The position numbers and the translations under genes were made by a program. 64,000 nucleotides of DNA, from the NCBI RefSeq assembly GCF_036711975.1, contig NC_091975.1, forward strand, positions 4,094,501 through 4,158,500, read 5' to 3'. The stretch comes from Onthophagus taurus (taxonomy: Eukaryota; Arthropoda; Insecta; Coleoptera; Scarabaeidae). Under the pieces are notes generated by a model that was given only the letters and a program-made list of their open reading frames with translations, was not told the DNA's origin and ran no database searches. Of the stretch, positions 9,439 through 56,169 are shown one piece after another (the stretch's first letter is position 1; the number at the start of each line of letters is the position of its first letter).

Positions 9439-12400
9439 ATGTGCATCAACGGAGATTGTGACCATCCGGAAGGGATGCTGGATCGTGATCTAAGAACGAC
9501 GAAATCATCGTTAGACGAAAGAACCACGCGGATCACGTCCGTTCCGGATGCGAATAAGTGTTCCCGATTAGGATCGAGTAAATCAGTTAAAAGGACGAGA
9601 TCGTGTAGTACGTGCTCCTTCAGGAATCTGTGCCACCACTTGCGGAAGAGCTTCCACAGTAAGTCGGGCTTTTTAGCGGTGTGTGCCAAGGCGGAGCTTG
9701 CTCCGACCAATCAGCGTTCGGTTCACCACCTGTTACACGCAGCTTCCAAAGACCGTAACTTAATTAGGTTTCTCTCCGCGACGTCGATTAACGGTCATTA
9801 AGGCCCATAGAGACCAACGGTAGCGTCATAAAACAACTACCCAAGAACTTTTTTACCCGTCTTAATTTCTTCTGACTTAAATGTTCTAGTTCAAGTTGTT
9901 TTCTTTTTGTTAATCTTTTTCTTTCATTGTTGTAGAATTCAAGCAGGCCGTAACAGTCTTGCTCTGTCTATCTTACGTCGTCGGTATCCCGACGACTTCT
10001 TCCCTACCGGTCACCAGGACTTCCAGGGAAACGATGGCCGACCAAAATCCAGCTCTTAAACAACTAGAGTCCATTAAAAACACCGCCAAGCATAATGCAT
10101 ATCAGGCTAGAGAATATTTTAATAACACATTTGTAAGTAAAAATTTTAAATTTATTTCAAAAAATGTTTAAGTACTTTATTGATAATCATAAGATTATTA
10201 GATTACAAAAAAAAATTGAGATTACCTGCTTATATAACCTGTTTAAACTTGCAAATTCTTATCTAAACAGGTCTAATCTTGCTAATCATTTTATTATCTA
10301 AATAGGAAAAATATGAATTAACTGATTCTCAATAATGTATTAATGTTGCAATAATTGTAATTGATACGATCGTAAATTTTAAACAATTTAATCTAAAACG
10401 TTAAGATGCTGCAAAAATTATTTGCAATTTCTAGACGTTTCAAAATGTTTTGAAATCTAAGCGTTTGCTTTTTTTTATGTAAGCCATTTCTATCTAAAAA
10501 TAAATTTTGATTTTGGATTTTTCCGCGTGCGTAAGTTTTTCATTGAAACGCACGGGTTCATTGATGAATCGGCTCGCGGGCGACGGCGACGTCTCGATTG
10601 GTATGCACATCGCCCCGTATATTATACCGTCCGTTGATGTCTGATTACATACTATCATATTTTTCGTCTTCGTTCAACGCGAGGTTGGCGCCTAACCTCT
10701 TGCTCTCTCTCTATCGGAAACAAACGAATCGTGTCTCTGTTCAACATCCGGCAAAATACCGTCCTCCGACCAAGTGCCTTTCCGTCCGTCTTTTATTAAC
10801 GCACATTGCTAAGCGCGTTAATAAACGCGCGCCAAGAGGAAATCCATAGTCCCCACGTTATTACTATGGATAGGTGATTCTCAACCCAGCAGGATTTCGT
10901 CTAGACAGATATACCGATAACCGGCTGCGAATTACTCTCCTAATTGTTCCCTTCGCAACTTTAACAATACCTTCAACTCAAAATTAAAACCTTATTAAAA
11001 TTTCGGAATTAGATAATTATTTAAAAACAGGTTACCAACCAGGATAATTACTTTTTATTGTGCTAATATACATTAAAAATCGTTTTACTAATAACACCAA
11101 TAATTAACAAAAAATTAAAATAATAAATTAAATCAAAACATTCAAACAAAAAAAATTGAAATAAAAGTTGATTCAAAAAAATTGAAAAGATAGATCAATT
11201 TTTGTTTTAGATTTTTTATTGTTTGTGAATTGGAAAGAAAAACGCCAACTCGGTTGGTTGTTGTTATAATCGACGTCGACGGAATTAGAAACTCGAGCTG
11301 CACAGAGCAACGTTTCGAGCACTTGTGTTGTGCATCGCCTACTCGATAGAAGGCGTCGAGCTGTCTGACACACACAAGGCCAACTTGACGACGACGGCTG
11401 TTGTGTAGCGCACACGCTCTCACTCACGTTATCGCGACTCTCTCGAGACACTTGTTTACGTTACACACTCATACATTTATAACATCAAGGAAAAGATAAT
11501 TTTTACTAATCGCAAATCACAAAATTTTTGCAATTTGGTGATCAAAAAAATACAAAACAACCCTATCAAACTGTTTCTGACAGGTTCAATCTCAACTAAT
11601 ATAAGTAAATCACATGCGAGTACATTATTTGACATCAATTACCATCAATCAATTAGACACTAAATCAATTGTCCACAAACGCCGTCGGTAAAGTGAATTT
11701 TCAAATCCCTTTGAAAACAGCTTTGCTTTGTAACGATATGGTACCGGTTCCAACTCCTCGAGCAAGTTTGCCTATAGATAAGATTTCGCCTTATCTTATT
11801 TTATGATCTATAATGCAAATGAAAACTCGTTTATTCTAAAATGCTGTCAAACAATATGTTAAAAATCAAATTATATCAGTTTTGTCAAGCGACATGAAAA
11901 CTGCCCAACTTCGTATGACATCAAATCCAACGCAAGCAATATTGGCAAATTAAATTTTCATATCTCTTCCAACTGCCTCGGTTGTAAGCAATTTCGGTAA
12001 AGTGAACGGTCCTGTAATCAAACATCAATTTGATTAGAATCGTGCTAGAGAAATATCAAACATTCTTAAGAATTATGCAACTTTGTAACTTTATGATATT
12101 GATTTCACTGCTCGACCGCAACCGACCTAGGCAAAGTGAAGCGTATTTATTCCCTTTTTACCCTAAATTTCTCGATATACGGATAGTATTTTAATCAAGA
12201 ATCATTTTTCTTGGAATACTGTCAGATAAGATATCAAACATTTTTGAGAATCACTCAACTTTGTAACTTTATGGTATTGATTCCACTACCTCAGGCGTAA
12301 GCGACCTCGGCAAAGTGAGGCATAATCATTCCCTTTTACCCTAGATTCCGCGATAGACTTAGAAAGTTGTTAAAGAATTGGTTACAAGTAAACTAAGCAA

Positions 12401-13029
12401 AGTGAGATTTCAAATTCATTTCTAATGCGAAAACTGATTTTCCATATTATATTTCTTAGTATATTCGGTTGCATATTAATTTTATTTTATTTTCTTTGTT
12501 AGCTGACAACAAAATATCCGAATATTGATTTATACAACAACAACAATTACACCTTCTTTTTCGAGCATATACCAAAAGATTTCAAGTTTCCACAGACAGT
12601 AATGTTTAATTCGGCCGTTTTAAAAGGGATGACTGTAAGTTATTAATTTTTATTCCAACTTTGATCAATTAATTTGATAGTTAATTTAATTTTTTGTTTC
12701 AGGTAAATGAATTTACACAAATCTTTTATGATTGCTTCTTGCGATTTAATGCAACGATGGACATGTTAAAAGAAAAAAATGAGGTGATTAATAAGTTGAA
12801 GGTGTTATTGGAGGAGTTTGAGGAATACATTGCAATAGAAAATATAGAACCGTTGAAGATGAAGTACGATGAAAGTGATATAAAGCTGGGAAAAGATGAG
12901 AGTGATACGGGGGAAAGATGGGTGAGGGATATGATCATATATAGGGATTTCGCTAAAACGATGGAGTATGTTGACAAAGCTTACGAGTATTTTTACAATC
13001 TGGCCGTAAACGCAGAGGCGTCCCAGTAG
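9439..13029 (+). CDS. Gene A: helical secreted or type II cytokine-like protein (candidate Unpaired-type)
   Basis: Four coding exons rebuilt from splice signals: 9439-9658, 9936-10132, 12503-12634, 12703-13029 (stop TAG). All donors are GTAAGT; intron phases are 1, 0, 0; product 291 aa. Residues 1-74 are Cys- and basic-rich (C-S-T-C-S-F near 58-65). A hydrophobic segment follows (AVTVLLCLSYVVGIP, 78-92), so the protein has either a very long signal peptide or a type II signal anchor. A furin-like RTSR lies at 101-104 and QNPAL at 110-114, followed by a predicted amphipathic helix to the phase-0 intron. Exon 3 holds the motif PKDFKFPQ; exon 4 is almost all helix (about 184-228 and 254-285). 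N-glycosylation sequons: N136, N154, N199. After RTSR I see one Cys (194). The overall form is that of a four-helix cytokine, and it shares exon layout and motifs with gene B. No family signature is recognisable by eye; Unpaired is inference. The 9475 ATG is an alternative start. Confidence 0.75.
10133..12502 (+). other. Intron 2 of gene A (2.37 kb)
   Basis: GTAAGT donor at 10133 and TTTGTTAG acceptor ending at 12502. The intron contains a GC-richer block at about 10520-10860 and another at 11270-11460. The second block, read on the minus strand, has GAGA-like and TCAGAC words like a promoter or 5' leader, but no coding exon could be followed from it. A worn tandem array occupies about 11680-12410. 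Confidence 0.6.
11680..12410. repeat. Worn satellite-like tandem array in gene A intron 2
   Basis: Two clear units start with ATATCAAACAT at 12053 and 12231, giving a 178-bp period. Both run through CAACTTTGTAACTTTATG to the shared word GGCAAAGTGA. The same word, as GGTAAAGTGA or a close variant, recurs near 11686, 12000, 12133, 12312 and 12397, so earlier units are present but shortened or eroded. Confidence 0.65.
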
Positions 13030-13328
13030 CTGTCTCTTGCCGAAAAAAAGAAACAACGAAAACTCGCTTTCCAGTCAGAAGATCGTACTTACTTTAGATT
13101 TTAACCCTTGACCCCGGATTCCTATACATCCTCCGATATTTTTATATATGTAATTTACTGTCTTATTTATGACTATAATTTATGATTATTGTAAAAGATA
13201 ACGAACCGAACGATGAGGGAAACTTTATTTCTTAAAGGTGGGTCCTCAACAAGTGGATCCATCGTATTTTATTTATACACTGTGATATTTTTTCGGTCGG
13301 TGTTTTGCAGTTTCCACCGGCTTAAAAG

Positions 13329-13334
13329 AATAAA
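13329..13334 (+). terminator. Polyadenylation signal AATAAA of gene A
   Basis: AATAAA lies 300 bp after the gene A stop codon. A GT-rich stretch (TTTGTCTGTAC) about 25 bp downstream fits a cleavage and polyadenylation site. No other AATAAA was seen between the stop codon and this one. Confidence 0.6.
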
Positions 13335-13499
13335 TATTTATTATTTTAATTTTGCGTTTGTCTGTACTACCCTTTTGCCCGGTCTAGAAACGGGTCATAT
13401 CTCAGGAGATCATAAACATTCGAAGCCCACTCAGCAGTTTCAGCAATAACAAACTGTTTTATAAATACTCTCCTTACTAGACGTTTCTTGCCACTGATA

Positions 13500-15610
13500 T
13501 ACATTATACTTTTGTTATGCAATCGGTTCGTTTTATTTTTGCTCCGGCTACATTCGGAGGAGCCGCAAAAATGTTTCTCTCAAGGTGATTGCACGTTGAC
13601 CCGGCATTCTGCGAAGAACCGGCCGAGTTCTCACGAATCGACTGCCGATTCCTAAGAATCTTTCTCTCCTCGTCTAGCCGAATCTTCCTCTTGTTGGGGA
13701 TCCATCTCTACCTGATTTTCGTTTACCCGCCAAACTCGGACCCTTTACCACGCGAGAGCCGCCAATTCACACGGCCATTGTTTTTAATGTCTTTGGTAAA
13801 GATGTGATAATCAATAGTTTCAACAAGCACTGTCCACAATCTCGTTAGAAGGAAGCGATGGGAACCGATTTGTCACGAGGGTTCTAATCACTTCTGACTC
13901 TAAAGCCTAGATGGTCAAACGAACCATCCAAAAGACTTTAAAGAATTTCCGATCTTCTTACCACTCCGGATAACCTTGATCCCATTTTCGGCATTTCCTC
14001 TGAGTCAAATTTCGCCGAGTTTGGGTGGAATCCGGTAACCGAATGTGTTTGGTCTTCGTCACCAAATGTCTTTTGGTACCGTTAACACGGTGTTAATATC
14101 GAGTGGGTACCCAAACGGACGCGTTGTGTCACCGACCAGGTGAAAGTTATCGGTAAAAGATGAATCCTGCATGAGTGTCTATATAGAGCCAACGTAATGT
14201 TGCGCAAATTCTATCTTAATTTCATCGATTTTAACTACCGGAAATTCCTTTAACTTTCTGTTGTGATAAATCGTAAGTATTTCAACGAAACGAACGAGTG
14301 TTTTGAGTAGTTCAAGGGATGGTTGCCCCTCCCATATTTCGGCACCGGAGACAGAGAGATTAAGGAATGATTTGCACTTCGGGAAAAAAACAACCCCAAC
14401 CGTCATGTCATCCTCGGGTGAAATATTTGAATGGCCACCGTATTCTTTTCGTTAATCCGTGAGCTGGGAGTCGAATGACTCCATTGCGGTAAGAGGGGTT
14501 GTCAGGTTTATGTCCGGGGCGATAAGTGTCTTGACGCGAGCGAAAAATGGACGATTTATTGGGTTTCCAGACCGGGGTTGGTAATTTGTCTTGGGTGCCG
14601 CAAAGAGGTGCCGCGAAGGGCGGACTCGGAGGGTAGTGCCCTTCGGCGTCAGACCGCCCGCTGTGTGGCGCAGGGGGCGCCACACACCGCCCTCTACGTT
14701 CCCACACTCCAGCCCACCCAATTTGCAAACGAAAACATTCCTCGAAAAAAGGATCGAAAAGGAGAAGAGGCGCAGACTCCGGGTCTTTTCCTTTTTCGTT
14801 CTTCTATGACAAAGGAGGAATCCTAATTGCGGGATAAATCGACGATTTCTGGCGTGTGTTTCGCTCGTCCGAATACCGGACCATGAGAACATGGGTTTTA
14901 ACGGAAAAAAGGCCAGCGTGAGGCGTGGAATTTGTCCAGTTTAACTACGCCGGGTAGCGATGTCCACCGTTGATAACAATATCTCCCGTCCGGTCTTCTT
15001 CGCCGTGTGTCCTTTCGGCGAGAACATCGAGGATCGCATTCTGTTTTTCTGTTGTGCGCCATCGGCCTTTGGCACGAAGCGCCGAACAGGTAGGCTCTCG
15101 TTTTGCTCACTCGTTTCTTCAGCGTTGTCTTTGTCTCAAGTCGCCGAACATCAAGCCGCGTTTAAACTTCAAGGTTTTTATTCAATAAGATTACAACAAA
15201 TTTCTTTACAAGACGTTTAGAAAAAACGACGAGAAGAAAATCATTTTTACCCATCCATTACTGGTAAGTGGAAAGTTTTGAATCAAAAAATTGTTGTTGT
15301 TGGTGAAGACACAACTTTGAGATTTTTTGGTGAGCAGGATACCAGGGCCTCCCAAAAGTGTCCGAATTTGCATTTTACATCCGCGGCCGTCGTATCTCTA
15401 CACGTAATCTGGTGTCCGAACCGGCGCCCGCTTTGTCTCTCGCCGTCCATTCGCTTTCTCAATGGACGATGTGACCTATGGCCGGCCAGCGCACTACATA
15501 ACGATCCGTTTGACGGCGTCCGACGCCGGATTTCGTGCCTACCTGGTCTCCGAGGTCTTGTAAAACAATTAAAAAAGGATCGAGTCGGATAACACCAGCC
15601 CATTCACCGA
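13500..15610. promoter_or_regulatory. GC-rich island downstream of gene A, likely regulatory
   Basis: Base composition rises clearly over the flanks. Long overlapping open frames exist on both strands (for example a 146-codon minus frame at 14892-14452), but they overlap each other, have low-complexity Arg/Ser/Pro content and show no conserved motif, so I treat them as by-products of GC content. The block probably holds enhancers or a 5' exon that I cannot identify. Confidence 0.35.
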
Positions 15611-16569
15611 CACGGCTTAACGATTATTGACTCGATGTAAATTAGTCCTAAAAAGCAGAACTAAAGATTTTTTTACTCTCTTATAGAAATCTTTCTGTAT
15701 CGGTTTCCTTATTTCATCTCAAGTTTTTGCAAATCATTAGGAATAGCATAAGAATCATCAATAAGATTTTGCATCTATCTCAATAATTAGTTTGGTCTTT
15801 ATGCACTTTAATAAATATTCATCTTGTCTAATTTGTGCACTCGAATTCACAGCAATGAGAGAGTATCCTAGATTAAAGTACTAGCCCAATCTGGGGCCCA
15901 ACCCAACTGAATTCAACAGAACCCAACAATTTTTCTTAATTTGTTATAGAGAGACACTTTTCTATTCTTCTTCCTTTGGCTTATCATCTCTGGTAGAACA
16001 GAAACTTTTACATCACTTTTCACTCTCCTGATTGCGTCCATGGCCTTCCCTAAAGTCGTTCTGGTCTTCATTTTTCCTCCATTTTCTCCATGTAGATCAC
16101 AAGTCGGTCTTTAGCTTCTCAATCCGATTTTTGACGCATTCATTATATGCATACAAGAAAATTAAGTACCCAAGAGGTATGCAATACTTTTTTCCTTGTG
16201 CATAGTTTGCATCTTCATACCTTTTGGTTTGTCCCTAAATTTCTTTTCGTTATTTTTATCTGAGATTTCTTCAGATACTTTCATATAAAGAATTTCAATA
16301 AATCACTTTTTTCCAATTACCTGACCGGGTCGAGGGATTTTTCGGTTTGCAAGTTTATTTATCCGCTGTCAAAACGTTTACACGTCCATGACTTACCACT
16401 ACTCTTCTTCTCTCATTCGTATACAAAGAATCTGACCGACCCTATTGTTTCGCGGCATTTTCAGGCGCCTCCTTATCACTCAATCTCTCGCGTTCATAAA
16501 TCACACGCCCTGCGAACCCCCCGAATAAAGAAACGAAGCGACTGTGGTCCATCCAGCATTCCATCCGAA
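15611..16569. other. Intergenic, no feature seen
   Basis: AT-rich sequence without a supported exon, RNA gene or repeat. Confidence 0.4.
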
Positions 16570-16812
16570 ATGAAGTTTTTTATAAAGTTTTCTTTGGTTC
16601 TCTCGTTGCTTGGTGGGTATTACGAATTTATTCTCGCGCACACCTCCAGCTGGACGTACCCACGTGGAGTTTCGCAAACCGACGACAAGTGTCTTTCTGG
16701 ACGCGAGCATTTCCTTTCACAAAAGCGTTTCGTTCGGCTATTTTGCAATTTAATCGTCGTTGGATTCATTCTCACTTCAAATGAATTAAACATTCGAAAG
16801 TACAATATTTGA
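16570..16812 (+). CDS. Doubtful small ORF with signal-peptide-like start
   Basis: An ATG in good context (CCGAAATGA) opens 80 codons. The start MKFFIKFSLVLSLLGG, followed by YYEFILA, looks like a cleavable signal peptide. The rest has two Cys and a second hydrophobic stretch (LFCNLIVVGFIL) near the end. It could be a small secreted or membrane peptide, a first exon that splices within the GGTGGGT after codon 15, or chance. I do not recognise it and no neighbour supports it. Confidence 0.22.
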   Translation: MKFFIKFSLVLSLLGGYYEFILAHTSSWTYPRGVSQTDDKCLSGREHFLSQKRFVRLFCNLIVVGFILTSNELNIRKYNI

Positions 16813-19800
16813 AATTAAAAAAGAATCGAGCCAAAATTATTTTCTTATTTGTCTACTCCGTAATAGATGGCGTACATAATAGCAATGTTTATCAAAATTT
16901 AATTTCAACATAGAACTCGAAAATAGATGATACAAAAAGGATTTAATCTCAAGTTCTGTCAGGATGAAATCGTGAATAAGAGATTGTTGCATTGGAGCAC
17001 TTAGCGAGCCGCTAACAACGTGTATAAATCTGTGGGGAACCTTTCAACGGTCAAAAGCGTGCTGGTGAGACGAAAAGGAAATATAAAAACGATCTCCCCA
17101 TATTTATCGATACGCGCCACGCTCTTGTATGCTCGAAATTATCGGGCCGTATTTATGTTTTTATAAATTTAGACACATTTATATGCTAATTGGGGCGGTC
17201 CGCGAGAGGATCGTCGTAAATATTCGTACCGATGAAATAAAATCGGTCCATTGTAGGTGATACGTGATTTATGGGGAGACGCGAAAAGAAACACGCGAGT
17301 TAGCAAGCTATTTTTTGACTTATCAAAAATCTTTATTAATATTCAAAATTAAAAATGAAAATATTTTTGAATAAAGGTTACATGATCACATCTACGAAAA
17401 CCCTGAATCACCTATTCTTTTAAACATGATTTTGTCGAAAAAATCATTAATTAATTTGAATAAACAAAAATAATCATGTAACATGCAAATTTTTATCACA
17501 TTTTGATTTCACAAATAATCCTTGAATTATTTTAAAGAAATCCCCTGATTCTATATAATATGTGTAATTTTTTGCGGATTATTTTTTGTAAATCAACAAT
17601 GTTTAAGAATAAAATTTTTCTTTTTATGCCTTTTTGTACCTGTTTTATTCTTCACTTGCATATCTTACAATATTTTACAATCTTGCTTCGAGATTAATGT
17701 TTCAAAAGCTTTAGCTGTTTCACAACTTGTCATAACTCTGATTGACAAGCGCGTCCTCAGGATGCAATACAAATCACTTTACCTTTCAAGTTATGCCCAA
17801 GATTGCTCTATTTCAGCTTATAATTTATTGATAATTAATAATTTTTGATGTGTAATGTAAATAAATATAAGAATAAATTTATATTTTGATCAAGTTGAAA
17901 ATTTTCCGATTATTTATCGCTTGTGATGTTACTAGCTGGTAATAAAACAACAATTAAGTTTTTTTGCTTTAAGTATCCGGCGATTTATAGCAACAAAGAC
18001 GTTCAGAGCAGGTACTAGCATCCACAACCGGCAATTTAAATTCTAGCCAAGTGACTCAGGTCTTATTATATAATGTAATCGGTGATGATTTAACTTTTTC
18101 CCGTTCGGCGATGGTCGTTTTTCTTTCAGAGTTGCTTCGATTTAACCTTCTTCTCTCCAAGTCGAGCTCCGCGAACGCATATCCGATACCGTTAGCTTTC
18201 TCCTTCGTTTGTGTCGCAGCTCTAAGGTTCCCCCCGATTTAACAGTCTCGCATTATACCGAGCGTTTCTCGACGACCATAAACCTCCCGGTGACAATGGA
18301 ACGGAGCTAATGTCAGCCGACCCGTACATGCGCGGTTAATTAGTAAGTTGAACGGGACAGGGCTTTTATGGCAAAAGAATCCGAGTTATTTTTATTGTTT
18401 AATTGCTCGGATTTTTCCCCCCTTATCGCAACAAACCCAGAGAGACCGTACTTAGAACCGATTTTACTCGTTTTGTAATCGATTCCACGCGCGACAACGT
18501 TGTGTATCACTTTGTGCACCAGAATTCCGACTATTTTTTTAGAAAATGTCACATGAATATGACTCAAATTGAAACATGCTGGGCGTTTATTACTCATTAC
18601 AACCTCGTGTAAATTAGACACAATACTATTTTAGTATGTATTCGAAGTCGAGCGATCGATACCCAGGAGTACTTGTTTCCGGTCCACACGGAAATGCCAG
18701 CAATTCCTCTCCGACGCATCACCGATTGCCGGATATCCTTTAAGTTCTCGATCGTAACACGCGTAGGAGTGCGATCTGCTCGGTTCAGGTGCACAGAAAT
18801 AACGAACCGTCGTCGTCGTCGACGCCGTTTGACCTACATCCATTGAGTTGGTTGGTCGAGTGGACGGAGCTCAGGAAATGCCACTCACGCACTACTGGTG
18901 ATGGTAGGCGAGCAGGTATTGCACTGCAGGATTTGTTTGCTTATTTATCGGTTCACAGTATACCAGCACATTTTCTTAGAACTGATTCTAAAAGATCAGC
19001 ACGCGAAATCCTCTTTCTCAACTAACGACACCGAAAATAACCACCATTTATTTTACCACCACTTATTTTACCACCCATTATTAAATCACTTAAAAATTCT
19101 ACACGTTTAAATACAGAATTAAAAATTACCGCCGCGGTGTACATAAAGTTGCATACACGTTAGGAGTGAAAACAATTGAATGCGAAGAATCTTTTCGAAC
19201 AAAAACGTTGTGAACAAAAGAACAAAAACGTATTTACGAGGTCGTTCGTGTTCTGACGTGTATGCACTTGCTGTTTCCCGTTCCAGAGAGCACTTAATCA
19301 TCTGAAAATCTTAATCCCCCGTGCCAAAAACACCAAATCCCATAAGAAAACAAACGGATAAAGGCAACCCCTCCCGTTTTTCTTGCGTTTTTACGGCAAA
19401 TCATGGGCTGTCATAACATTAAAGGGCTGCATAAATACCTTAAACGCTTTAACTATCCGTTGCTGGGCTCTTAAAAGATTTCTATTCCCCCGGCCTTTAG
19501 GGAAAATGTGGCTCATGGGCCTTTAAAACGACAATAGTTCGGCCCTTTGGCGCTGTTAGTGTCGGTGATTCAGCAATAGCGGTGCGCAGAGTGGTAAATC
19601 ACCCCTCGAGACCGATGTTACACCATATCGGCAAATATTTGTTCGAGGGTCTCAAAAAGGTGGTCGGTAGGCTTTGACACCCGGATTAGGTATACACTAG
19701 TGACACCTAGATTTATGCCTCCGGGATAATGGGCCGTACCTGTGCGCGAAAACTACAGGGGTGTATTAAGAAAATCTTAAAATTCTCATCTTAAAACTAG

Positions 19801-22231
19801 TTATTAAAGGATGTGAAATTTGAATAAATCTAATCTTTATCGTTAAAGAATGAATTGTTTTGTGAAATTTGAGTTTAACCATGTTGTTTGAAGTAGTTTT
19901 AATTAAAACTAATTTGTTAACAAAGTCCTAAGCCATCTCTGTTGAATCCTAGTGCGCGGTAGGTCGCACCCTGGGTGGACAATCGACGTAGCGCCACCTA
20001 TACACCATCAATGGTTCTAACAGAGATGTCAGGAAACGGTGACATCGCACAATGGACCTAGCCCGTAGGATACCGCATTCCTGGCCCGATTGAGAACCGT
20101 CCAGTTACCGCTTCTTCGGGGTTTTTTCTTCACCACCTCCGGGGGATCAAGAAGGAACCCTCTACGTGCCGCTACCAGAACTCCGAACTGTGACGATTGT
20201 TAAACAGAAGAACGAGGGAGGTTCTGCAAATTATTGCGGCGACTCGTTAGTGACACCATATCAAATCAGTGTTTTGTCCTCAGACAGCGGGTGGGGACCT
20301 CGTTGTCCACGGTTCGTTATTTGTCTTTTTCCGGACTTGTTTGTTTGTCTTGTGTGACGAATTCCATAGATATTTCTTCTTCCTTAAGCAACTTCTTCGC
20401 CTTCTGGAACGATGCGAAGCACTGTTGAAGAAGTATGTGGAAGAAAGGGGGGGGTTGCAGTCGTCGCGGGGCCGCGATTTATTGTTATAAAGCGGGCACA
20501 TTCGCGGTCACGTACGCCGGACGGCCGAAGAAAAGCGTCTCTGGCGCGAAAAAAGGCCGCGACGGAAACGAATTGTGCCCGGCAATTACGGTTTTAGTGC
20601 GTGGCGTGCACGCGAAGAAAGACGGAGGAGAGGAGGCCTCTTCGTCCGTTCGAATCGAATTATTCGCCAATGCGCCGCGTCCGTCGTTGCGTCGACATCG
20701 CCGCATGTCACTGAATATTTATGGCCCGGGGGCCGCCTCAATGGACAGGTTTTATGGCCGTCGACCGTGGAGCGGCGCGGCCCGAGCCCCTATGATCTTC
20801 ACCTCGCGACCGCACGCTGGGTCCACGAAACAAAAAAATCTCCACTAGAAATTGTTTAACACATTTTCAACTACATATTTCTATTGATATCAAAACTGTT
20901 CTACCTACTAAATAACAGTTTTTGTTATCTGAAAAAGGGATGAGGATGTGGTTCTCGCAATGGCTATTCAATTAACCCCATTTCCACCCGCCACGTATCT
21001 TTCGGATAGGTTTATCTCTTGTTTACGTATTCGCTGGGGTAAAACATGTTTTTGCCGGGCGTCAATTAACCGGTCGGCGCGGCGGTTCGTTTGGGTCTTG
21101 GCTAATTGGGGGCCCGTCCACCGGGGCCATCCCCGAAGAAGAATCTAACGCTTTCAGAGCCTCGGATTGAGCCGTCAAAGTGCGCGCCGGCGATAAGTGA
21201 GCGGACGACGACGGCTCAAACGGCTCAACCGGACCACCCGACGACAGGCGGCGGTCTGGACGGATTTCGGATAATGAAGTGCCTCCTTCCGACCACCTCA
21301 GATCGGGTTTCGGACGAGGCGTCGCTCCCGGCGTGGCGATTAATTGAACAGCCCGATTTCAGTTAGCTAGCCGGACGAACGCAAGAAAAGAACAGATAAA
21401 TCCTGCACAGGATGACGACACGTTGTAGGCACGTTGTAGCTCCTCCTGGCGGCCACATATACAAGGCCTGAGGGCAGGGCGCGCGGGAGTCCGAACCCGG
21501 CCCCGACGGCTCATATCTCGGCAGCATCTCGGAGGACCTCGGAATGCGAGAGATCCAGCGTTAATATTTCACTCACCGCCGGCGCGATCCCCGACGCCGG
21601 AAAGTTTAAAGTCGTCCGACGACCGAACTCGACGCTCAAAGAACTTTCCAAGGATCCCCACCAACCACACACACTGTATTATAACAGCTATACCAAACCT
21701 ATAGCAAGAAATAACCCAACTAATACAATATCATTTACAACAAACTAAATTTCTTTACCAACTACTCTTAAGATATTAGGGTATACTAAAGAAGATTGAG
21801 GGGACATCCTGTTGCTTCGAAATCACGTGGGAACTTGCCGTGGCCACCCTGCATAATGATTAAGTCCGGACGTCTCCTAACGAGCGCCAGCGACTTGATT
21901 TTGGTGCGAACGCCGAGATAGCGGCCACCCGCATCTCATTGGTACTCACCGTAGTTCGATAGCTATGCCAAGATACATATGTATATGGTTCTGTAGCGAT
22001 TATTTCAACTCGAAGGTGACCATCCTTCGGTCTTTGATTCAGAATCTGTAAATTACCTTTAAGATACAAACACAAAATTGTATTTAACAAATATTAACGC
22101 TAAAACAAGAATATATAAAAAAAAAGAATTATCATCAGGTTGGGTAAAACGTTGTCACATTGATATTAAAAAAATAATAAAAATTTAAGTTTTAACATAC
22201 CTAGTGGTTGATAATTTGTAATTTATGCCAT
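16813..22231. other. Intergenic with GC-rich islands
   Basis: No convincing gene. GC-rich blocks lie at about 18050-18860 and 19900-21660. They carry several GCCATAAA words (18364-18373, 20718-20725, 20752-20758, given on either strand), which combine the Pho core GCCAT with a Caudal/Abd-B-like TTTATGG. A short TTTTACCACC repeat lies at 19050-19080. The ORFs in 20412-20859 overlap in three frames and are rejected as coding. Confidence 0.4.
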
Positions 22232-22648
22232 TACAGATTATCCAAGACCTACAACAGCGAGTGAGTTTCGACGATTTATCGGAAGGTAAGTTGGATTGGG
22301 CACAATCCAGAAAAGCTCAAAGGAAAATCTTAAATCAATCATGACTTGATAAAGCCAGTACTTACGGAATTTTCACTTTCAAAAATGTTTTGGCCCAAAC
22401 AACTGTTTTGATATACAGTTAGTGCTTTCTTGCAACAAAGAAATCTCTGCAATTGATAATAAATGCAAATTATTTCAGAACATTCGACATCCCAACGCAG
22501 TAGGAGCCAGCTGAAATTCGAGCTTTCTACTGAAATTAATTTAAACACCGTTAATACATTAACTTTCTGGAAGCTAGGACACGGATCCGCATGCTATATT
22601 GCCACTCGACAACGTTGTGGGCTACATACAAGGCATGGAATGTTCTGA
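22232..22648 (+). CDS. Possible exon pair of an unknown gene
   Basis: A 49-nt segment (22237-22285) lies between a TTACAG acceptor and a GAAG|GTAAGT donor and reads IIQDLQQRVSFDDLSE. A second acceptor, TTATTTCAG (about 22480-22488), opens a segment whose first two bases complete the split codon as Glu and stay open for about 53 codons (HSTSQRSRSQLKFELS...). Two compatible splice sites and a matching phase are more than chance usually gives, but no start, no family and no further exon were found. Confidence 0.25.
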
Positions 22649-23437: not shown

Positions 23438-23439
23438 AA

Positions 23440-32400: not shown

Positions 32401-34590
32401 GTACATACTATATAATATAAGAATCGAGGTGTTTCCGTCAAAATGTACGAAATTGGAAATACCAATGTTTGGTAGAGAATAATGTGATTAAATAGCCGTG
32501 TTTCCCTCGTGCGAGTCCATCTAAATTGATTTTAATTGTATAGGAAAGTACGCAAACGTAAACCTGCCGTAAAAAATGGAGTACACGCTTCGGAACTCCG
32601 TTCGGTTTCCGCAAACATAAACAATAACAGATCGCGTTATTGCGCGGACGCCAAACGCTCTGTGGTGACGTGCAAAATGGACTAAATGTTATGGAACACA
32701 TGTTGAAAGGTCCGGGATGTGTGTTCCTTAACGTTCAAGACCTTGTTTCCGTTGAAATGACGTTCAAAAGAACGCAAGATATGATTCATTTACTGTTTAA
32801 GTTTTCATGCTTAATTTTGGAAGCGACTTTTGATTTTTTTACTTTTAATATTTACAAACTGTCAACGTGGTTAAGTTATTACTTCTGGCCACAATAACTG
32901 TTATCTAGGCATTTGAAAATATTACGCGAATACCGCAATTTAAAAAATGCTCACATAAACCAACATCGCCAGGTTTTCCTTCAATGCTAATTAGTTTGTT
33001 AATTGGAAAATTTTTTCGATGGGTGTAAAAATTGTTTTGAAATTTAGAAATTTCAATTAAACTTTTACCGTCAAGTTATTATACTTGTTAAAAACCTTGA
33101 TTGGTGTTTAAAATTGTATAAAAACTCCCTACTGCTTAATATTCACTTTTCACTAACCGCTCATTTACATAATGTTATAAGTTTATTTTAGTGCTAAATA
33201 ACAATTTTATTAGAATTTTCACTAATAGTAATCATATTCTGTATTAAATACAAAAATAGTTTGATGGATTTATTATGATAAATCGTTAGATTTTAAAAAT
33301 AGCTATAAAACGGCATGTTTACGTTTTTTATTCTCATGTGAATACCCGTCGACTAATGCGAGGTGTGTCTTGACGTCGAGACGTCGGCGTCAACGCACAT
33401 ACTTCTCAGCGTCTTGACGCAAATTTGCATCTACATATGCGAGGATCTAATTTTTCGAATATACCCCGGTTTTGTTACACAATGGATTTAACAGGTATTT
33501 TACCTGTTTAATTATTCAACATAGTTATTCATCCTAATAGCTTCGATTACACGGTAAGCGTTTAATTATGCACGTTAAACAATTCGTTTTATCTCCTTAT
33601 ACCTGGAGATCTTTGTTTTTCTTTGCGCAGTATTTAATACAAAAACGAAAGACCTTTTGTATCAAATTTAAACAATAAGAACTTTTTGGTACATTTCAGG
33701 TTTTTATAACAATAGGAATAATAATTGCACGGACCGCAAAGAATTTACTGAATTTTTGTTTTTATGCAAATTTCCCATAAAATAAATAAATATTGTCTAG
33801 ATATGTCAGTTAAGCAATAATATACAACAATAACAAGTAAATAAGCCAAAGCGACGTGACGTAAACGCAAAGTAGGGGAATTACATCGAAGTCGGTCTCT
33901 CTCCTCAGACCCGTAATGACTTAAGGTGAAATTCGCCAGCATTTCGTCGAAGCATTTTGACGAGAGACACGTATTGTGTGCGGCTTCGCACGACGATTCA
34001 TCGGAGCTCTCGTGCCTTTAGGTTATCAATTTTAAAAACTATAAAAAGCCATTCCAATCGCTACTTTCCTGACTCACCTACGATAAAAGAAAATCAAATA
34101 AGCGTGAGAAATCCTCCGTTAAAATAAATAACCAAGGTTATGAAAAATTGCGGTTTTTACAAGTTGAATAATCTATTTGAACTAAATATTTTCTAAGAAA
34201 TTTCAATCTAAAAGCAACCTATATAAAGTATGACAAATAAATGAAGTTAAAATTCGAAAACGGAACTTACATAACGTAAATCAACACTCCTCGTAGATGC
34301 GCGATTATCACATTTGATAACGACTTTTTTAGGAATAGTTGAGAATGTGTCAAGGTGAATTAAGACTTACCTCAAAACAGCAAGTTATGGATAAAAAACT
34401 ACTCTAAGATCATACTTATCCTTAGTATTGTTTAAAGAGGTGAATGTGGTGAAAACTTGATTCTGGGTACTCACAGAGGTAACATAGTAGTTACAAAATT
34501 ACACAGTTAGGACAAGACCCAAGTGATGATATTGAAGGGTTGAAAATTAAGGTTATAATCTTACACCACACTATCTAAAAAACAAGTTGA
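23440..34590. other. Long intergenic stretch, mostly AT-rich
   Basis: No supported gene. A GC-rich island at about 24150-24680 contains GCCATAAA (24229-24236) and TTTATGGCCG (24277-24286). A segment at about 25370-25515 ends in CTCACCCTGTATAG and contains TATCTCCGCTAGTTTTCGAGA; such words are common in insect MITE-like DNA repeats, so a small transposon remnant is likely. GGGGATTTCC at 32273-32282 is a Rel-type site. Open frames at 26103, 29426 and 32640 lack splice context and motifs and are left out. Confidence 0.4.
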
Positions 34591-34596
34591 CTATGG

Positions 34597-36184
34597 TGAT
34601 TCAAATTAAAAATATTTAAAGCATATTTTTCGTAACAAATTTACATATCCTGCATGTTCCAAAATAAACATAGTTTTAAAGTATTTTGAAAAATGTCGCA
34701 CCAAACATACCAATAGGTATTAGTTACTACAATTTGAAATTAACCTGTTATAAACAAACACTTTTTCACCCTGAGTCACTGAAACCTGATATAGGCCAAG
34801 CAGAACATCCATTGCTAGATTTGGCGTTGTGCTTAACGCACCAGAGATTACTAATCCAGCTACTTGTTGAATTCTTGAAAGTTTATTGATAATTGAAGTC
34901 TATCGGACTTTTCTACACCAGGCTAAACATGGTGGTAGTAGATAGGAATGAGGTGAACCCACCAATCGAGATAAGTGGCAAACGTCCCTGTCTTGACTAC
35001 ACCTAGTGGCCAGCAACATCTGCACATGTGAAGATTATCTGACTTTATTCATACTCTGACACTTTTATAGATTAATCTTGCTTGTTCCTAAGGTGAAGAT
35101 GTTCTTACTTAGAGTAGAACAACGTTTTTGGAAAATATAAAGTACCGACTGGAAATAACTTTCAAACTATCAAGGCCACTGGCTAAATCTCTAACAGGAC
35201 ATGAGCTATACTTTCTATTGAGCAATAGAACTAATCCACATTGGCCTTGCTTAGCCTTAACCGACATTCAACCAATAAATAATGATTAAACAACAACATT
35301 CAATGCTTTAATTTCAAGCTATAATGCGATACAAACTTCCAAATGTTGTAAGTGTTTATAAATGTTGTTCAAGAAAAAATTGATGCCAGAACAGATTCTC
35401 CACAATCAGATGCAATCAAGCTTGGTGTCAAGTTTCTATTCGTTCTTGAGGTAAAAATTTCTAAAATTGATGCGAATTTTTATGTAAACATTTATTCTAT
35501 CGTTTTAAAAAAATCGAATTCTTAAGATATGTTGATGAAACATTCGCGATTTATTACGCAGAAAGCCGCATTTAAAAATCTCTATTCGTTCTTGAGATAA
35601 TAATTAGTGAATTTGATCCGAATTTTTATGAGATATTATTGCCATTATTTATACTCAAGACTTTGAATATATAAATAAATAACCCCGTATCCGTTTTATT
35701 TTTCCCTCTACAAGGTATTCCACAAGTTACAAAATAATAATTACGTAAAATAATTTATACTCCACCGGTTTCATCATATTTATGGCATCTTCAGGAGTGT
35801 GTCATCACGATTAATGTATATAAAATCAATTGGATTTACATAATATATCAACTTTTAGTGTGTCAGTTTAAACAGTGATTAATTTAAACAATTATCTCGT
35901 CAAAGAATTGTTTACGACTTCTAAAGAAAATTGTTAGTAGTAATTAATTCAATTTCAATTTTTTTACAAAATTGACTATATTTTAATGAATGGACGAATT
36001 GTGATTCAAATTAAAGATATTTAAAGCATGTTTTTCATAACAAATTTACATATCCTGTATGTCCCAAAATAAACATACTTTTAAAGTATTTTGAAAAATG
36101 TCGCACCAAACATACCAATAGGTATTAGTTACTACAGTTTGAAATTAACCTGTTATAAACAAACACTTTTTCACCCTGAGTCAC
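34597..36184. repeat. Pair of 184-bp direct repeats flanking 1.2 kb
   Basis: The segment 34597-34780 is repeated almost unchanged at 36001-36184 in the same orientation, an offset of about 1405 bp with only a handful of differences. Each copy begins TGATTCAAATT and ends CCCTGAGTCA, so it has the TG...CA ends of an LTR. No primer-binding site starting TGG and no target duplication was found. The internal part (34781-36000) contains no readable retroelement motif. It may be a small non-autonomous terminal-repeat element or a plain local duplication. Confidence 0.6.
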
Positions 36185-39100
36185 ACTTTCATTTCAGACG
36201 TCAAAGAATCACGTCAATTTCTTGCAACAAATTCAGCATGCAACGATTATGTATTAGGTGAAATATACTTATAGACACACACTTTCACTTAGTCATTCTT
36301 TCACTTTAGACGAATTTAAAGTGCATCAACAAATATTCAAAAAATGCATCGGACGGAAATTCTTTTTGACTCATCATCATAAAATTTCTTTTGTATCGAT
36401 CTAATTTGGCGTCGAAGGAGTCCGAAGAAATCCGCGTCGAATACAAACATTACATCATCAAAATGTCTAGTCTATTTCGGGCACTTCTCTAAGAGGAGAT
36501 GTTAATGGACCTGGTTGCTTACATTGTCGCGTACGTCAAAGTTAATTTGCTTCCATACGAATTTTACGTCATCGATTGCAAAAAAAAAACTTTTTTTTTT
36601 TCGATTTGAGTTGGAACAGAAAATATCTCATTAACGTTGTAGCTGGCCACGACTTGTAATAACACCATTAAAATATAAGCATATTACCGGCATAACGTGT
36701 AATTAGTAAACTCCGGTGACAGAAACGTTTGCCTGTTTACAAATTTTGGGTTTTTAACCGCACGCAAGTTTTACTTTCGTAGCCTTTTCTGATTTATTGC
36801 ACTCCACGACGATTTATTGCATCAAAAAGGGAGCGAAAGTGAACCGAAAAGGCAACCCTTTTTCAATTTTTTCCTGACCTAACGGTGTTTTGATTTATTG
36901 ACCATTACAATAGTAAACTAAAAGGAAGGATTTATGAGGATGAGTTCTCAAGGATGATTATTCAAAAATCGTCTCGAGACGAAAACTTATCCGACTTCTT
37001 TTTTATCTGCCGAACCGTAAAAATAAAAACTTTTACACGGCCGTTAATGAACGGCGGTCTTCCGGAGGACGTTATCCTTTCGCCAGGACAATGGGAGGTA
37101 AACGGACTCGAAAATTCCTGTCAGAGACGGTCGCATTCCTGCTGCCCACGCGTCGTGAATCAAGCTGGGATGTAAACATCCCTGTCTTAGGGTGAAACGG
37201 TACATTTTTATTGTCAGAACAACTGTTAAATGCTTCTGCTTTAGCACGATAAAGACATTTTTGATTCTTTTAACGTTATAGCGGTTCTGTTTGTAGTATG
37301 TTTTTTGTTAACCAAAAATGTATTATTATAACTTTAGGATGTTAGAGATTTTTCTTAATTTACAGTCTTCAGTCGGTGCCCGAAAAAGTAAACACGTTTT
37401 TGAGATGTTTGCCTCGCAAACAATAGCTGCGGGGCGTGTTGAATATTTGAAATCTCTTCACTATGTTAACCCATGTCAACACAAAAAAGTACTTTTTCCT
37501 TATAATCCTTATCATGAAAAAATTTGCTTCGATTTTCATCTTAGCACATGTGCGCGATCGTCTCTAAGAAACACAAGAGGTGATTCCCGAGGAATCTAAT
37601 ACAAGAATGCCACCATCTGCATTCCAAGTCTATTTGGTTAAAAAAAAATAGTGCTTACGTCACCTGCTGTAACGTTTTGACGTCTTCATTCGTTCTAAGT
37701 AGATTACTAACGTAACAACAACCGGGTTCATCAAGAATTCGCTGTTGAATATCTTACGCACCTTAGTGTTATGAATGACATACTTAGACGTACGTGCCAT
37801 TGAACAAAAACAATTTTTTTAATTATGCTATTACCAATGACAAATCTTTATGCAATTTCTAAACAATAATATGCGAAAATGAGAATTTTTGATTGTTATA
37901 TTCTTTTTGCGACTGTCGTCGTTGTTGTTGTGGAATAAATGGTTTGGCCATAGACGGAGACTCGAAGGACTTGACATACCAGAAGAGACCGAGAGTTCCT
38001 CTGCGTCCCCTACCATCCGGAGCGGCGACGACAATTAGTGCATTTCGTAGCCGCACGGCGTTGCTTGCGTGCGAAGTTAAATTGGAATAATCGCCGGGAG
38101 TGCATGTGTAATTGTACGGTCGGAAAACGGCCCCGCGTATACACATATCGCCGGACAATCATGTCATATTAGTCCGGGCTAATGAAGCAAGTAATGGCGC
38201 TGCATGTACACGCACACGCGGAGGGTCTTCTTCTGGTCCTCCATCCTCTCTTTCTTATATTTTTTTCTACATATATATTCTATGTTTACATATATACAAA
38301 ATCAAACAGGATTCAAACCATTTCTTTTATCACAAAAAGAAAAAGTAAATCTTAGATGCTAATAATTCAGCAATGAACCTTAATCTAGAAGAGATTACTT
38401 CCTCTTCTACTACTGTCATATACGACATAAAATATTTACCAAATATGTTCAAATAGTTGATGAATAAATATTAATGTCTCAAGTGTCAGGTGTCCACAGT
38501 TATAATTTTTGACACTTTGGACCAAATACTCATAGCTTTTTTTCCATTAGACTCTGACAGGTAATGGTCTCTTGGTGAGCAAGAGGGCACTAACACCAGC
38601 AATCTTATCCAAGTGAAACTACCTCAACGATACTATTACAACTTGGCTTTCCAAGGTCTTCCTTAGAAAGAAGTTTGTTAACTATAGTCGACCACCCAAC
38701 GGGTGGATAAGATTTTTATCGACATTACACAGTTGAATGTAGATCACCTATCAACAATTTTTGGTAGCCAGAAACTAGTAAATGAACCAATTTCAGGAAC
38801 TCTATACATTCCAGTTGCCGAAAAGGTGGTGATCAAGAATTAGGAAAATACACTCATCAAACATTTGTATGGAAGAAAGCTCAGACAACTTCGCTGTTGA
38901 CCAACATATCAGATACAGGAAGTCTTATGAATAGAAAGGCCGAGCGCCGGAGTGTTCTTCTTCGAAACCATAGCAGTAGTATCACTTATTCCAATGGCTT
39001 CACCAATATGCAAGTATCAACTTAACATTCTTTCTTAATTTGTTTATCCTTTTCCATCCATTTCCTTTAAATCATTTTTTTTTCAAACTTCTACAATTAT

Positions 39101-39791
39101 TTAAATAAAAGCAATTGATTCCAGATAATTTTCTCTTTGGTTAGCAAACTTTTGAATTTTTTCTTCTCTGTCACCACAAGAAGAAGTCGATCTCGTATAC
39201 ATTCCCGTTGTCAACGGTTGGATCCTTAATCTGGAGGAGGATCGGGAACGCGCACCTACGCCCCCAGACGTCTCCGTGGTCTCCTCCTCATTATTCAGAC
39301 GTCCTCTTTTTGCCTCCGATTCTATCGGAGTCTCTTCTCCACCCGAAGAACCACCGGAGAAGACGCGTACGAGAGAAATAAGCCACGATTCATAAAACCA
39401 TAAAAATTATTCCCGTAATCGATTCATTAAGGAAAAGTGATTCATTCAAAACTGTGTTGCAACGAAAGCAAATAGTATCGACCAAATCCTAGAACTTGAC
39501 CCAGTTTCGTAACCTTGTCGTCGGTTTGCATAGGTCATTCGCTTCGCAACTTAATTCTTCGATAATTCCCTCGTTTAACGCCCTGCGTCGACGGCGTTCG
39601 TGGTAGGAACGAATATTCTTGGGTTTTGTCTGGAGTGTCTAGACGAATTAGACTTTGCCGATGAATACTACGATTAGTCAACGGGAATCCTAAAAACTGC
39701 TTCCCGTTTGGAATAGCGATTTCCCTGAAATATCCTGAAGTAGAACAAATCACAAATTCATTGCGTAATTATGTCGACTTTTTTATTTTTC
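36185..39791. other. Intergenic, no supported gene
   Basis: GC-richer patches at 36960-37180, 37930-38230 and 39190-39380 may be regulatory. The stretch 38480-39010 has the texture of decayed transposon coding DNA, but no motif could be placed in any frame. Confidence 0.35.
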
Positions 39792-41420
39792 TTGCAAATC
39801 AATGTTTTTTTATTGCACTGTTTAAAGTTTATAAATCGTATCTGATAATATCCGGTGATTCAATAATAATTGATAACAATTTACTATTTTTTCTATGATT
39901 CTTATCTGAACATCATCATCAATTAGGAGTAATAGATTGATTTTTATTTAATCGTTAAAAATTTTTTTTATTATATAATGCTTATATCGCTTAACTATGA
40001 AAGTATTGCTTTTAGATTACCACATGTGGATTTTCTGGACTAGATTGTGCGAATTTTCCAACAATTAATCAATTACCATGTAATTTGCTATTATTTTCAT
40101 CGCATAACTTAATTAAAATCATTAAGATGGAAAATTCCTGTACAAAAAAAATCTTTTACTTTTAATTTGTAAACTAGGTGTTTTAATATGTTTATTCAAC
40201 TTCAAGGATTACAAACACAATAATTTTTTTATGAAATTTCTATCAATCTACAATCAAACCAAATATGAATAATTTTTCAAGATTTCAATAACAATCAATT
40301 CAATGTAGAATTTTTTTTGTAGAATTTATTGAAAAAGTTTTTTGATTTTTATGACAAAGATCTTATTCCATTTTTTTATATTTTGAGCTATAACTAATTT
40401 TCGACTCAAACTTCGTGAATATTTGATATTTTGCGATTTCATATCAATTTACTTGGCACCAATGGTCGATGGAATAAAATTACTTACTCGAAATAATTTT
40501 TGGGTTAATTCAAACCTAGTTTGATGTAAAGCATATTTTGTCACCTTAATTATTTTTTGAGTTATAACAAATTTTCGACTCAAACTTCGTGAATATTTGA
40601 TATTTTGCGATTTCATATCAATTTACTTGGCACCAATAGTCGATGGAATAAAATTACTTACTCGAAATAATTTTTGGGTTAATTCAAACCATGTTTGATG
40701 TAAAACATATTTTGTCACCTTAATTATTTTTTGAGTTATAACAAATTTTCGACTCAAACTTCGTGAATATTTGATATTTTGCGATTTTGATCAGTTTACT
40801 TGGTACCAACGATGGGTGGAATAAAATTACTTACTCGAAATGATTTTTGAGTTAACTCAAAGCAAGTTTGATGCAGAACATATTTTTCCATCTTAATTAT
40901 TTTTTGAATTATAACCATCTTTCGTCTTAAACATTGGGAAATTTGATATTTTACGATTTTGGGTAGATTAATTTGATTACCAATGATCCGTGGTAAATGA
41001 TTTTTGATTTATTTAAGCATGATTTTTGTGCAAAACATATTCTTTGCAAATCAAAGTTTTTTAATTGTACTGTTTGAAGTTGATCAATCGTATCTGATAA
41101 TATCCGATGACTCAATAAACTAACCAAATAGGTCTTATAATAGTTTGTTATCTTAACAGTATCAATTTATTTTTAATCGCAAAAAATTTTGTTTTTGGAT
41201 TACCACAAGTGGATTTTCTGGACTAGAGTCTGCGAATTTTCCAACAATTAATCAATTAGAATGTAATTTGTTATTATTTTCATCGCATAACTTAATTAAA
41301 ATCATTAAGATGGAAAATTGAAATTAATTCAAACATCGTGTAATTTGATAATTTTCAATTTTGTATTAGCCAGTTTGGTACCTAAAAAAATCATTTACTC
41401 GAATACCCATTTCTTTCTAC
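39792..41420. repeat. Satellite-like composite array with 174-bp unit
   Basis: The word TCGACTCAAACTTCGTGAA starts at 40401, 40575 and 40749, an exact 174-bp period, and a diverged fourth unit follows near 40922. Each unit contains TTTGATATTTTGCGATTT and TTACTTACTCGAAAT. The array is flanked by a longer direct repeat: 39792-40136 recurs at 41043-41319, sharing GTATCTGATAATATCCG and TGGATTTTCTGGACTAGA. After the second flank another partial 174-bp unit follows. The order flank, units, flank, unit suggests a higher-order repeat. It ends about 430 bp before the gene B TATA box. Confidence 0.85.
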
Positions 41421-41851
41421 AAAGTATTTACAGAACAAGTAAAAATCGGTGAAATAATAAATTTAAATTGATTAAAATCAGTTATTCATTGATTAAATAG
41501 TTTCTATTTTTAAGTTTTTAAGAATGAGAGGTGTGTCTGATAAATTTTATTTATGTTTTCAAAGCTTTAGTTATCTTATTTTAAAAATTCTGATTCTCGT
41601 GTATATTTGAAGTGATTTTATTATAATCATGAGTACACCACTTATAATTTATAAATCTCCTAAAAAACAGGTAAAAACCTGCGAACGTTTATTACTCAAT
41701 TTTGCACTTGAAACTTTATTGTTTGTTTTCCGTATTTTATATGTATTAAATCTAAGTTAATTAGATCTAATACTAATCGATATTAAACTAATACTATTAA
41801 AGCCTATTGAAATATTGTTACATTCGTAAAAGAAGTATGGCCCCCTCCCCT

Positions 41852-41912
41852 TTATAATAGTATATATATTGACGTCCTAGGCGTTTTCGACTAGATACAG
41901 ATTAGTCAGAGA
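41852..41912 (+). promoter_or_regulatory. TATA-type core promoter of gene B
   Basis: TATAATAGTATATATATT at 41852-41870 is followed by initiator-like words, TACAGATT at about 41897 and TTAGTCAGA at 41902-41910. The first ATG of the following exon (42022) sits in AAAAAATGG, a good insect start context. The start site is inferred from spacing. Confidence 0.55.
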
Positions 41913-42021
41913 GACGTGACAACTACAGTGCGACTTCGTGAACGGTTCGTTCGTGTTTTCCAAAGAAAGTTTGAGTAAATTTATTTTTTGTACCAGTGAG
42001 TGTGAAGATACATAGAAAAAA

Positions 42022-43229
42022 ATGGATTTTAGACTGAAGATTGGCAGCACCACAAGCAACACTATAGGTAAGTTCGAATGAACCCTCAGAATCGCACATT
42101 TCGGTCCGAGAGCGAGGTGGGGATTTGGCTTCTTGGATTCGCTCATGACTCAACTGAGTCTAGATTAGTGAAACCCGCGTTGAGCGTGGCTCAGTTATCA
42201 GCGTGCTCGCGGCGAGTCGAGACTATCTCTCCCTGAAGACAGTTATTTTATTAATAAATTTGTGAATTAACTTAATTGTATTAAATTAAAATTAAAAAGT
42301 GAGTTTTCTGTTTTGGGTAGAATTAAGTTTTTTAGTCGACAACTTAATTAATAATAGATATTTTTCTTTCATTTGCAGTGAATTACTTCAGACTGATTTC
42401 GTTTTTGATGGTTTTATCAGTATTGATTACAACCTCGACGACAGCTCCCGCAACAAACAAAAATTTAAATAAGAACGTGTTCGAAATTATACAAAATCCA
42501 TGCCACTACAATGGTCACAAAATAAGACATCAACGATCCACTCAAGATCCTGCTTTCAATGTCCGATGGCATGTAAATACAACTCGCCGATTAACCGACG
42601 GAATACTTAAAGAATTCAGAAGAATGTACGACAAAGTAAGTACATCAATCTACAATTTTCAAAAAGACACAAATAATTAATTAATTCTTTTTTGTCTACA
42701 GTCAAAAATGAAACTTACAACTAGCAAATTTACTGTTCCCAAACAAATAAATCAACGAGTAAAATTTTACTTGAAACTTCAACTTTACGTTAAAGCCATA
42801 CGTATGTTGACCGAACGAGAATTTGAAAGTGCGGGTAAAATTGATGCGGGGAAGAGATTGTCTAATCTCACAAAACTTTACAATGAATCCACCATCCTTC
42901 TTTGCGAAATGAGCGATGACCTCCACTATCATAATCTAACGACACAGCAAGGTATCGATCATTTGGAAGTACCGCTGCCCATTTCAAATCAAAGCGATAG
43001 AACAACGATCAGTATCGAAGATCAAGGAGTTTTGAAGCATTACAAGAAGTTTTTAATAAAATTAGCGCAGTTTTATCACCCGGCCAAGAAAGGTAGGAGA
43101 AATGAAAAAGGGAACAAAAGTGGGAAAAATACAAGGCGGAAAGATGGGAAAGAAAACAAGCGAAAAGGAAAGAAAGGGTCTAAAGGGCAGAATGTAAAGA
43201 AGAACAAGAAATCATCTTCATCTTCTTAA
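42022..43229 (+). CDS. Gene B: secreted helical cytokine-like protein with basic tail (candidate Unpaired-type)
   Basis: Three coding exons: 42022-42067, 42379-42635, 42702-43229 (stop TAA); donors GTAAGT, phases 1 and 0, 276 aa. The first ATG is in exon 1; exon 2 has no ATG before the signal, so exon 1 is needed. Residues 20-39 are a signal peptide (LISFLMVLSVLITTSTTAPA, likely cut after APA). RHQR at 65-68 is furin-like, then QDPAF (71-75) begins a first helix that runs to the phase-0 intron. Further predicted helices lie at about 117-142, 151-176 and 205-228, giving a four-helix plan. Cys57 and Cys169 could pair. Sequons: N82, N156, N162, N179, N197. The last 48 residues are mostly Lys/Arg/Gly/Ser, a tail able to hold heparan sulfate or matrix, as reported for fly Upd. 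Paralogue of gene A. The family name is inference. Confidence 0.8.
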
Positions 43230-56160: not shown

Positions 56161-56169
56161 CCAAGGCTG

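Follow-up and report, generated by a model that had tools for sequence, protein, structure and literature searches.

The locus described here raises the question of whether two neighbouring genes of the beetle Onthophagus taurus, which we call A and B, encode a pair of secreted cytokine-type ligands, and what pathway such ligands might serve. Both genes lie within positions 4,094,501 to 4,158,500 of contig NC_091975.1 (assembly GCF_036711975.1), a stretch of 64,000 nucleotides referred to below as the window, in which coordinates are counted from the first base. In a survey of Tribolium, an orthologue of the ligand gene upd was not found, though Domeless, Hopscotch and STAT were present (PMC2375007), and a second Tribolium list of components of the Janus kinase/signal transducer and activator of transcription (JAK/STAT) pathway includes domeless, STAT92E and hopscotch (PMC3541394). 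Unpaired is described in one article as "not conserved outside of Drosophila" (PMC3130749). Upd3 was reported to be mostly alpha-helical by circular dichroism in a paper that adds that, as of 2020, neither Dome nor Upd3 had been studied structurally (PMC7378365). No report of a beetle Unpaired was found among the open-licence papers listed in searches aimed at it, which does not exclude that one exists.

In answer, we hold it to be an evenly poised proposition that A and B are anciently duplicated adjacent genes for small secreted ligands of the helical-bundle, cytokine type. The gene pair itself is real and well described, with models that were rebuilt from genomic sequence alone. Gene A has four coding exons with intron phases 1-0-0 and encodes 291 amino acids, gene B has three with phases 1-0 and encodes 276 amino acids, and 28,992 bases separate the two. 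The parts of both genes are as follows.

9439..9658, plus strand: gene A exon 1, from the first ATG of the open frame; 73 codons and 1 base, ending at a phase-1 donor (ACA followed by GTAAGT)
9936..10132, plus strand: gene A exon 2, with the hydrophobic segment, RTSR, QNPAL, a putative helix A and a phase-0 donor
9947-9988, plus strand: hydrophobic segment in gene A exon 2
10016-10027, plus strand: RTSR in gene A exon 2
10043-10057, plus strand: QNPAL in gene A exon 2
12503..12634, plus strand: gene A exon 3, a putative A-B loop with KDFKFPQ and a phase-0 donor
12703..13029, plus strand: gene A exon 4, helices predicted by AlphaFold, then the stop
42022..42067, plus strand: gene B exon 1, 15 codons and 1 base, ending at a phase-1 donor
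42379..42635, plus strand: gene B exon 2, with the signal core, RHQR, QDPAF, a putative helix A and a phase-0 donor
42393-42428, plus strand: hydrophobic signal core in gene B exon 2
42525-42536, plus strand: RHQR in gene B exon 2
42543-42557, plus strand: QDPAF in gene B exon 2
42702..43229, plus strand: gene B exon 3, with SKFTVPK, helices predicted by AlphaFold, a strongly basic C-terminal tail and the stop

All five donors read GTAAGT, all five acceptors consist of a pyrimidine-rich run followed by AG, and both spliced frames are uninterrupted from ATG to stop; the gene models hold up. A preliminary description of this DNA had listed the features that A and B share, and the rebuilt genes bore these out: both are on the plus strand, both have a phase-1 intron with the hydrophobic segment starting a few residues past it, an RxxR site follows (RTSR in A, RHQR in B), then a Q-[DN]-P-A-[FL] motif (QNPAL in A, QDPAF in B), and a phase-0 intron interrupts the frame 30 (A) or 31 (B) residues after the Q. 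The third intron of gene A (12635-12702, phase 0), which gene B lacks, was absent from that description. The last residue of RxxR precedes the Q by six positions in A and by three in B. Protein B begins with what looks like a classical N-terminal signal, and in A the hydrophobic segment is preceded by 77 residues; the mature A chain is about 190 amino acids long.

The rarity of this arrangement was assessed with a relaxed exon signature, consisting of an acceptor, a phase-1 frame, a hydrophobic segment, the motif [QEKH][DNES]P[ASG][FLIMVYW] and a phase-0 donor 22-45 residues on. The scan covered both strands of 264 kb (the 64-kb window and 100 kb on each side) and yielded two matches, genes A and B; the same DNA, dinucleotide-shuffled 60 times, gave none. 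Since the signature was learnt from the A/B pair, this result establishes rarity and is no independent proof of homology. Anchored comparisons of A with B gave p = 0.0195 for the five-residue motif and p = 0.036 for the exon-2 tail. At the nucleotide level, each gene contains one copy of CARRAYCCNGC, and these are the only two in the window, against 0.32 expected; at least two copies arose in 5 of 100 shuffles. Judged from these tests, the exon-2 part of the likeness exceeds chance, whereas the downstream echoes do not. The weak echoes that had been pointed out downstream, KDFKFPQ and SKFTVPK, are indeed present, but the likeness there is at chance level. Because similarity past exon 2 is at that level, paralogy rests on the gene plan, adjacency and the five-residue motif. 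The earlier claim of diverged tandem paralogues is retained in part, for the shared plan, strand and 29-kb spacing, though full-length similarity is no better than in shuffles, and we consider A and B to be probable paralogues.

Helices are weakly indicated in both proteins. Helix-like amphipathic windows made up 21% of mature A, compared to 7.6% in shuffles (p = 0.01), and 20% of mature B, compared to 10.9% (p = 0.08), which is no clear excess and includes some in the basic tail; such windows are also found at the exon-2 ends of both genes. AlphaFold models were made of single exons, A exon 4 and B exon 3, as single sequences without relatives, with the exon-2 helix outside the models. The A exon 4 model (mean predicted local distance difference test score, pLDDT, 58.8; predicted template modelling score, pTM, 0.36) has helices at exon residues 3-24, 26-46 and 69-106 and a short one at 49-54. 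The B exon 3 model (mean pLDDT 47.0, pTM 0.31) has helices at exon residues 14-42, 47-80 and 108-125, and its pLDDT reaches 60-67 in blocks between residues 21 and 70. These low-confidence models have a like layout: two helices separated by a very short turn, and a third helix 22 (A) or 27 (B) residues further on. The putative exon-2 helix would bring the count to four, and the last two would be separated by a long loop, as they are in long-chain cytokines.

The gene plan was also compared with that of known helical cytokines. In the vertebrate class I genes GH, IL6 and CSF3 the intron phases run 1-0-0-0; one intron falls within the signal peptide, one follows helix A and one is close to where helix B begins. 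The phases of LIF are 1-0. Genes A (1-0-0) and B (1-0) resemble these class I genes in the phase-1 intron of the signal region and in the intron after the putative helix A, with a further one in A at the start of the putative helix B. They differ in that gene A is without the last intron of IL-6 and GH, in the absence of sequence matches to A or B in the PDB, and in the absence of cytokines among the fold-search matches listed. Many secreted proteins have a phase-1 intron near the signal peptide, which weakens the argument from gene plan. It is as a tentative and rather doubtful idea that we put forward A and B as this lineage's missing JAK/STAT ligands, with the class I intron plan of vertebrates (a signal-region intron of phase 1, then phase-0 introns after helix A and ahead of helix B). 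Class II cytokines (interferons and the IL-10 family) are likewise helical secreted ligands, but five coding exons with phase-0 introns are the usual plan of their genes (PMC8863823), and A and B, with four and three coding exons and a first intron of phase 1, are disfavoured as class II genes for that reason. Within class II, IFNL2/3 are described as having an additional first exon that ends one base into a codon, that is, in phase 1 (PMC2654155).

Taken as ligands, A and B would enter the secretory pathway by way of the hydrophobic segment encoded just past the phase-1 intron, and might be trimmed at RxxR, just before Q[DN]PA. RxxR is the minimal furin-type site. In the fold, helix A, encoded by the end of exon 2, would be followed by a crossover loop, then by helices B and C with a short turn between them, and a long loop would lead on to helix D; the basic tail of B could bind matrix glycans. 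Protein A may have a long leader, or it may be a precursor that is anchored in the membrane and released at RTSR; a membrane anchor is suggested by its long N-terminus, which is unusual for a simple secreted ligand. We infer that the target would most likely be a class I cytokine receptor that signals through JAK and STAT, either Domeless or the orphan receptor CRLF3. The O. taurus genome contains a STAT gene, A and B are plausibly JAK/STAT ligands, and to treat them as candidates for the missing ligands is reasonable but unproven.

Several results, including the oddness of A's N-terminus and the commonness of phase-1 introns already mentioned, weigh against A and B as a pair of cytokine-type ligands, and most of them bear on one or another alternative. 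The alternative that survives best, although we regard it as unlikely, is that A and B are unrelated secreted helical proteins (matrix, binding or antimicrobial) that lie close together by chance, the motif and the phases being coincidental. Mature-chain alignments of A and B were near chance (global p = 0.136, local p = 0.27), and the best blastp match between them had an E-value of 0.33. A was also aligned by MAFFT with B in 28 rotations, and the rotated chain scored at least as high as the real pair in 9, 17 and 26 of them by gap-penalised score, identities and plain score, respectively. The mature-chain MAFFT alignment itself, though tempting in helices C and D, did no better than 300 shuffles (p = 0.13, 0.51 and 0.73 for gap-penalised, identity and plain scores) and was dropped. 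The short motif, moreover, was found by inspection, which brings some look-elsewhere effect and favours an unrelated origin. Confidence in the AlphaFold models is too low for topology to be read, and Foldseek searches of the PDB with both models (best E-values 0.24 and 1.1) gave nothing significant at E of 0.001 or below and no cytokine among the best 50 of 277 and the best 50 of 167 matches (up to E 10). Among those listed, B drew mainly ribosomal, Mediator and helical-bundle entries (designed or Rop), and A axonemal proteins and coiled coils of PI3K; both sets were put aside as uninformative. For the expected helical-bundle structures there is the like helix layout of two low-confidence models, and no significant fold match. 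Against an unrelated origin stand the joint signature, which across 264 kb is confined to A and B and is missing from shuffles, the shared strand, the 29 kb between the genes, the equal phases of the first two introns, and the like predicted helix layout. Our preferred reading is a duplicated pair, and we think it somewhat probable that A and B work like secreted helical cytokines.

Also unlikely, and a little more so, is true orthology of A and B with the Unpaired genes of flies by descent from the same tandem locus. Fly Unpaired genes (Upd1-3) form a tandem cluster and, like A and B, which appear to be secreted, evolve fast; A and B lie in tandem on the same strand, an order that is in itself common, and the helices predicted in them recall the helicity of Upd3 by circular dichroism (PMC7378365). 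Tribolium, in which the other parts of the pathway are present, is missing the ligand. However, the preliminary description had proposed a hidden Markov model search against the Pfam Unpaired family (PF15972, cut-off 27 bits), and that search did not match either spliced protein. Genome-wide searches (290.8-Mb assembly, 33 contigs) gave no PF15972 match at E 0.001, and up to E 10 a single match on another contig (16.1 bits, E 0.77), which is below the cut-off. The genes recognised on the flanks are a rhodopsin-type G-protein-coupled receptor (GPCR), a P5CS-like gene, Glyco_transf_49, astacin and Nramp. As the profile test found no match, A and B are not filed in Unpaired and membership is not shown, though PF15972 is perhaps too closely modelled on flies to detect them.

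Other databases gave a similar picture. Up to E 10, Pfam returned no family for protein A and only NEMP (E 0.12) for protein B, and the PDB sequence search returned no match for either; NCBIfam gave chance matches only, far below cut-offs. In viral contigs, 18 and 8 stretches fitted a pattern and none was confirmed. A genome search for further copies, with A queried without exon 1 and B without the end of its tail, recovered only A and B themselves. The lack of relatives and copies is as expected of fast-evolving ligands. The suggestion of a cytokine-like secreted family accordingly stands as far as apparent secretion, richness in helices, strong divergence and the shared gene plan go, but not as a match to the Unpaired profile.

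Improbable, in our view, is that one gene model is wrong or a pseudogene, with exon 1 of A in particular perhaps non-coding. Codon usage, trained on 2214 codons from 8 neighbouring open frames, ranked the proposed frame as the best forward frame in three of the seven exons and so did not single it out, which again counts against the pair, and the result was weakest for A exon 1, the least certain exon, whose frame it did not support. Measured against 254 open segments outside genes, A exon 4 and B exon 3 nevertheless reached the 95th percentile, and the uniform splice sites and open frames of both genes argue against a faulty model. That one or both genes encode ligands of CRLF3 and not of Domeless is the least probable alternative. 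In its favour, CRLF3 is reported to be expressed in Tribolium and locust and activated by Epo, with no endogenous ligand known (PMC8063046); against it, no sequence feature of A or B points specifically to this receptor.

Apart from the coding exons, the following elements were read from the sequence near the two genes.

9239..9245, plus strand: TATA-like element upstream of gene A
41861..41868, plus strand: TATA-like element upstream of gene B
43541..43565, plus strand: two TTATTTATT words, resembling AU-rich elements, downstream of gene B (weak)

The word TTATTTATT occurs 16 times in the window compared to 6.08 expected; two of the 16 lie after gene B, and none is listed downstream of gene A. 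The STAT-site word TTCNNNGAA was rejected as a signal, with 38 occurrences in the window compared to 31.8 expected and as many in 15 of 100 shuffles. Intron 2 of gene A contains, at 11673-12420 on the plus strand, diverged repeats about 178 bases apart (a 57-nt piece at 88% and one of 42 nt at 83%). A 25-nt family is also found there in four copies, each with GG[TC]AAAGTGA; these repeats are not known to have a part in the function.

The open-frame lists, and the two frames given to Pfam, revealed no recognisable further gene in the interval that separates A from B. An open frame at about 16560-16809 (plus strand) within this interval has an internal methionine followed by a signal-like stretch (MKFFIKFSLVLSLLGG...) and matched no Pfam family; it is possibly the first exon of another secreted protein. 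The wider neighbourhood was surveyed for open frames of at least 130 residues in 100 kb on either side, and the genes recognised there comprise the rhodopsin-type GPCR, the P5CS-like gene (AA_kinase and Aldedh), a tetratricopeptide repeat (TPR) gene, an N-acetyltransferase and Nramp. A Glyco_transf_49 gene, which we take to be B4GAT1-like, is found on the minus strand some 3 kb past the end of gene B (46534-47466, Pfam E 4.9e-55), with two more conserved-looking exons, by eye, at about 46030-46490. Between it and gene B are a Gag-like open frame (45021-45413), with a weak DUF7041 match under the cut-off, and next to it what appears by eye to be a fragment of a Tc1-type transposon (44500-44750). 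A 201-residue hydrophobic-rich open frame at 55572-56174 (plus strand) matched no Pfam family and resembles a transposable-element tail. A 722-residue open frame with DUF7869 on the minus strand (L019:181-2346) is perhaps of transposon origin. Two astacin-like open frames lie about 34 kb apart on opposite strands, one at L022:1342-1794 (plus), the only one of the two given to Pfam (Astacin, E 1.6e-40), and the other past the window end at window coordinates 149602-150024 (minus). Of two telomere words looked for in five tandem copies, TTAGG occurred at one place, on contig C3, and TCAGG nowhere, which was uninformative as to insect order, as was a comparison of the N-acetyltransferase with the PDB.

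How JAK/STAT signalling is activated in insects without a known upd is a question that two genes with exact exon coordinates make testable. The exon-plan signature, for its part, provides a method of search that has no need of overall sequence similarity. If A and B are indeed this lineage's missing ligands with the class I intron plan, IL-6-type gene architecture would be older than the split between insects and vertebrates, and could be used to find Unpaired-like ligands where sequence searches fail.

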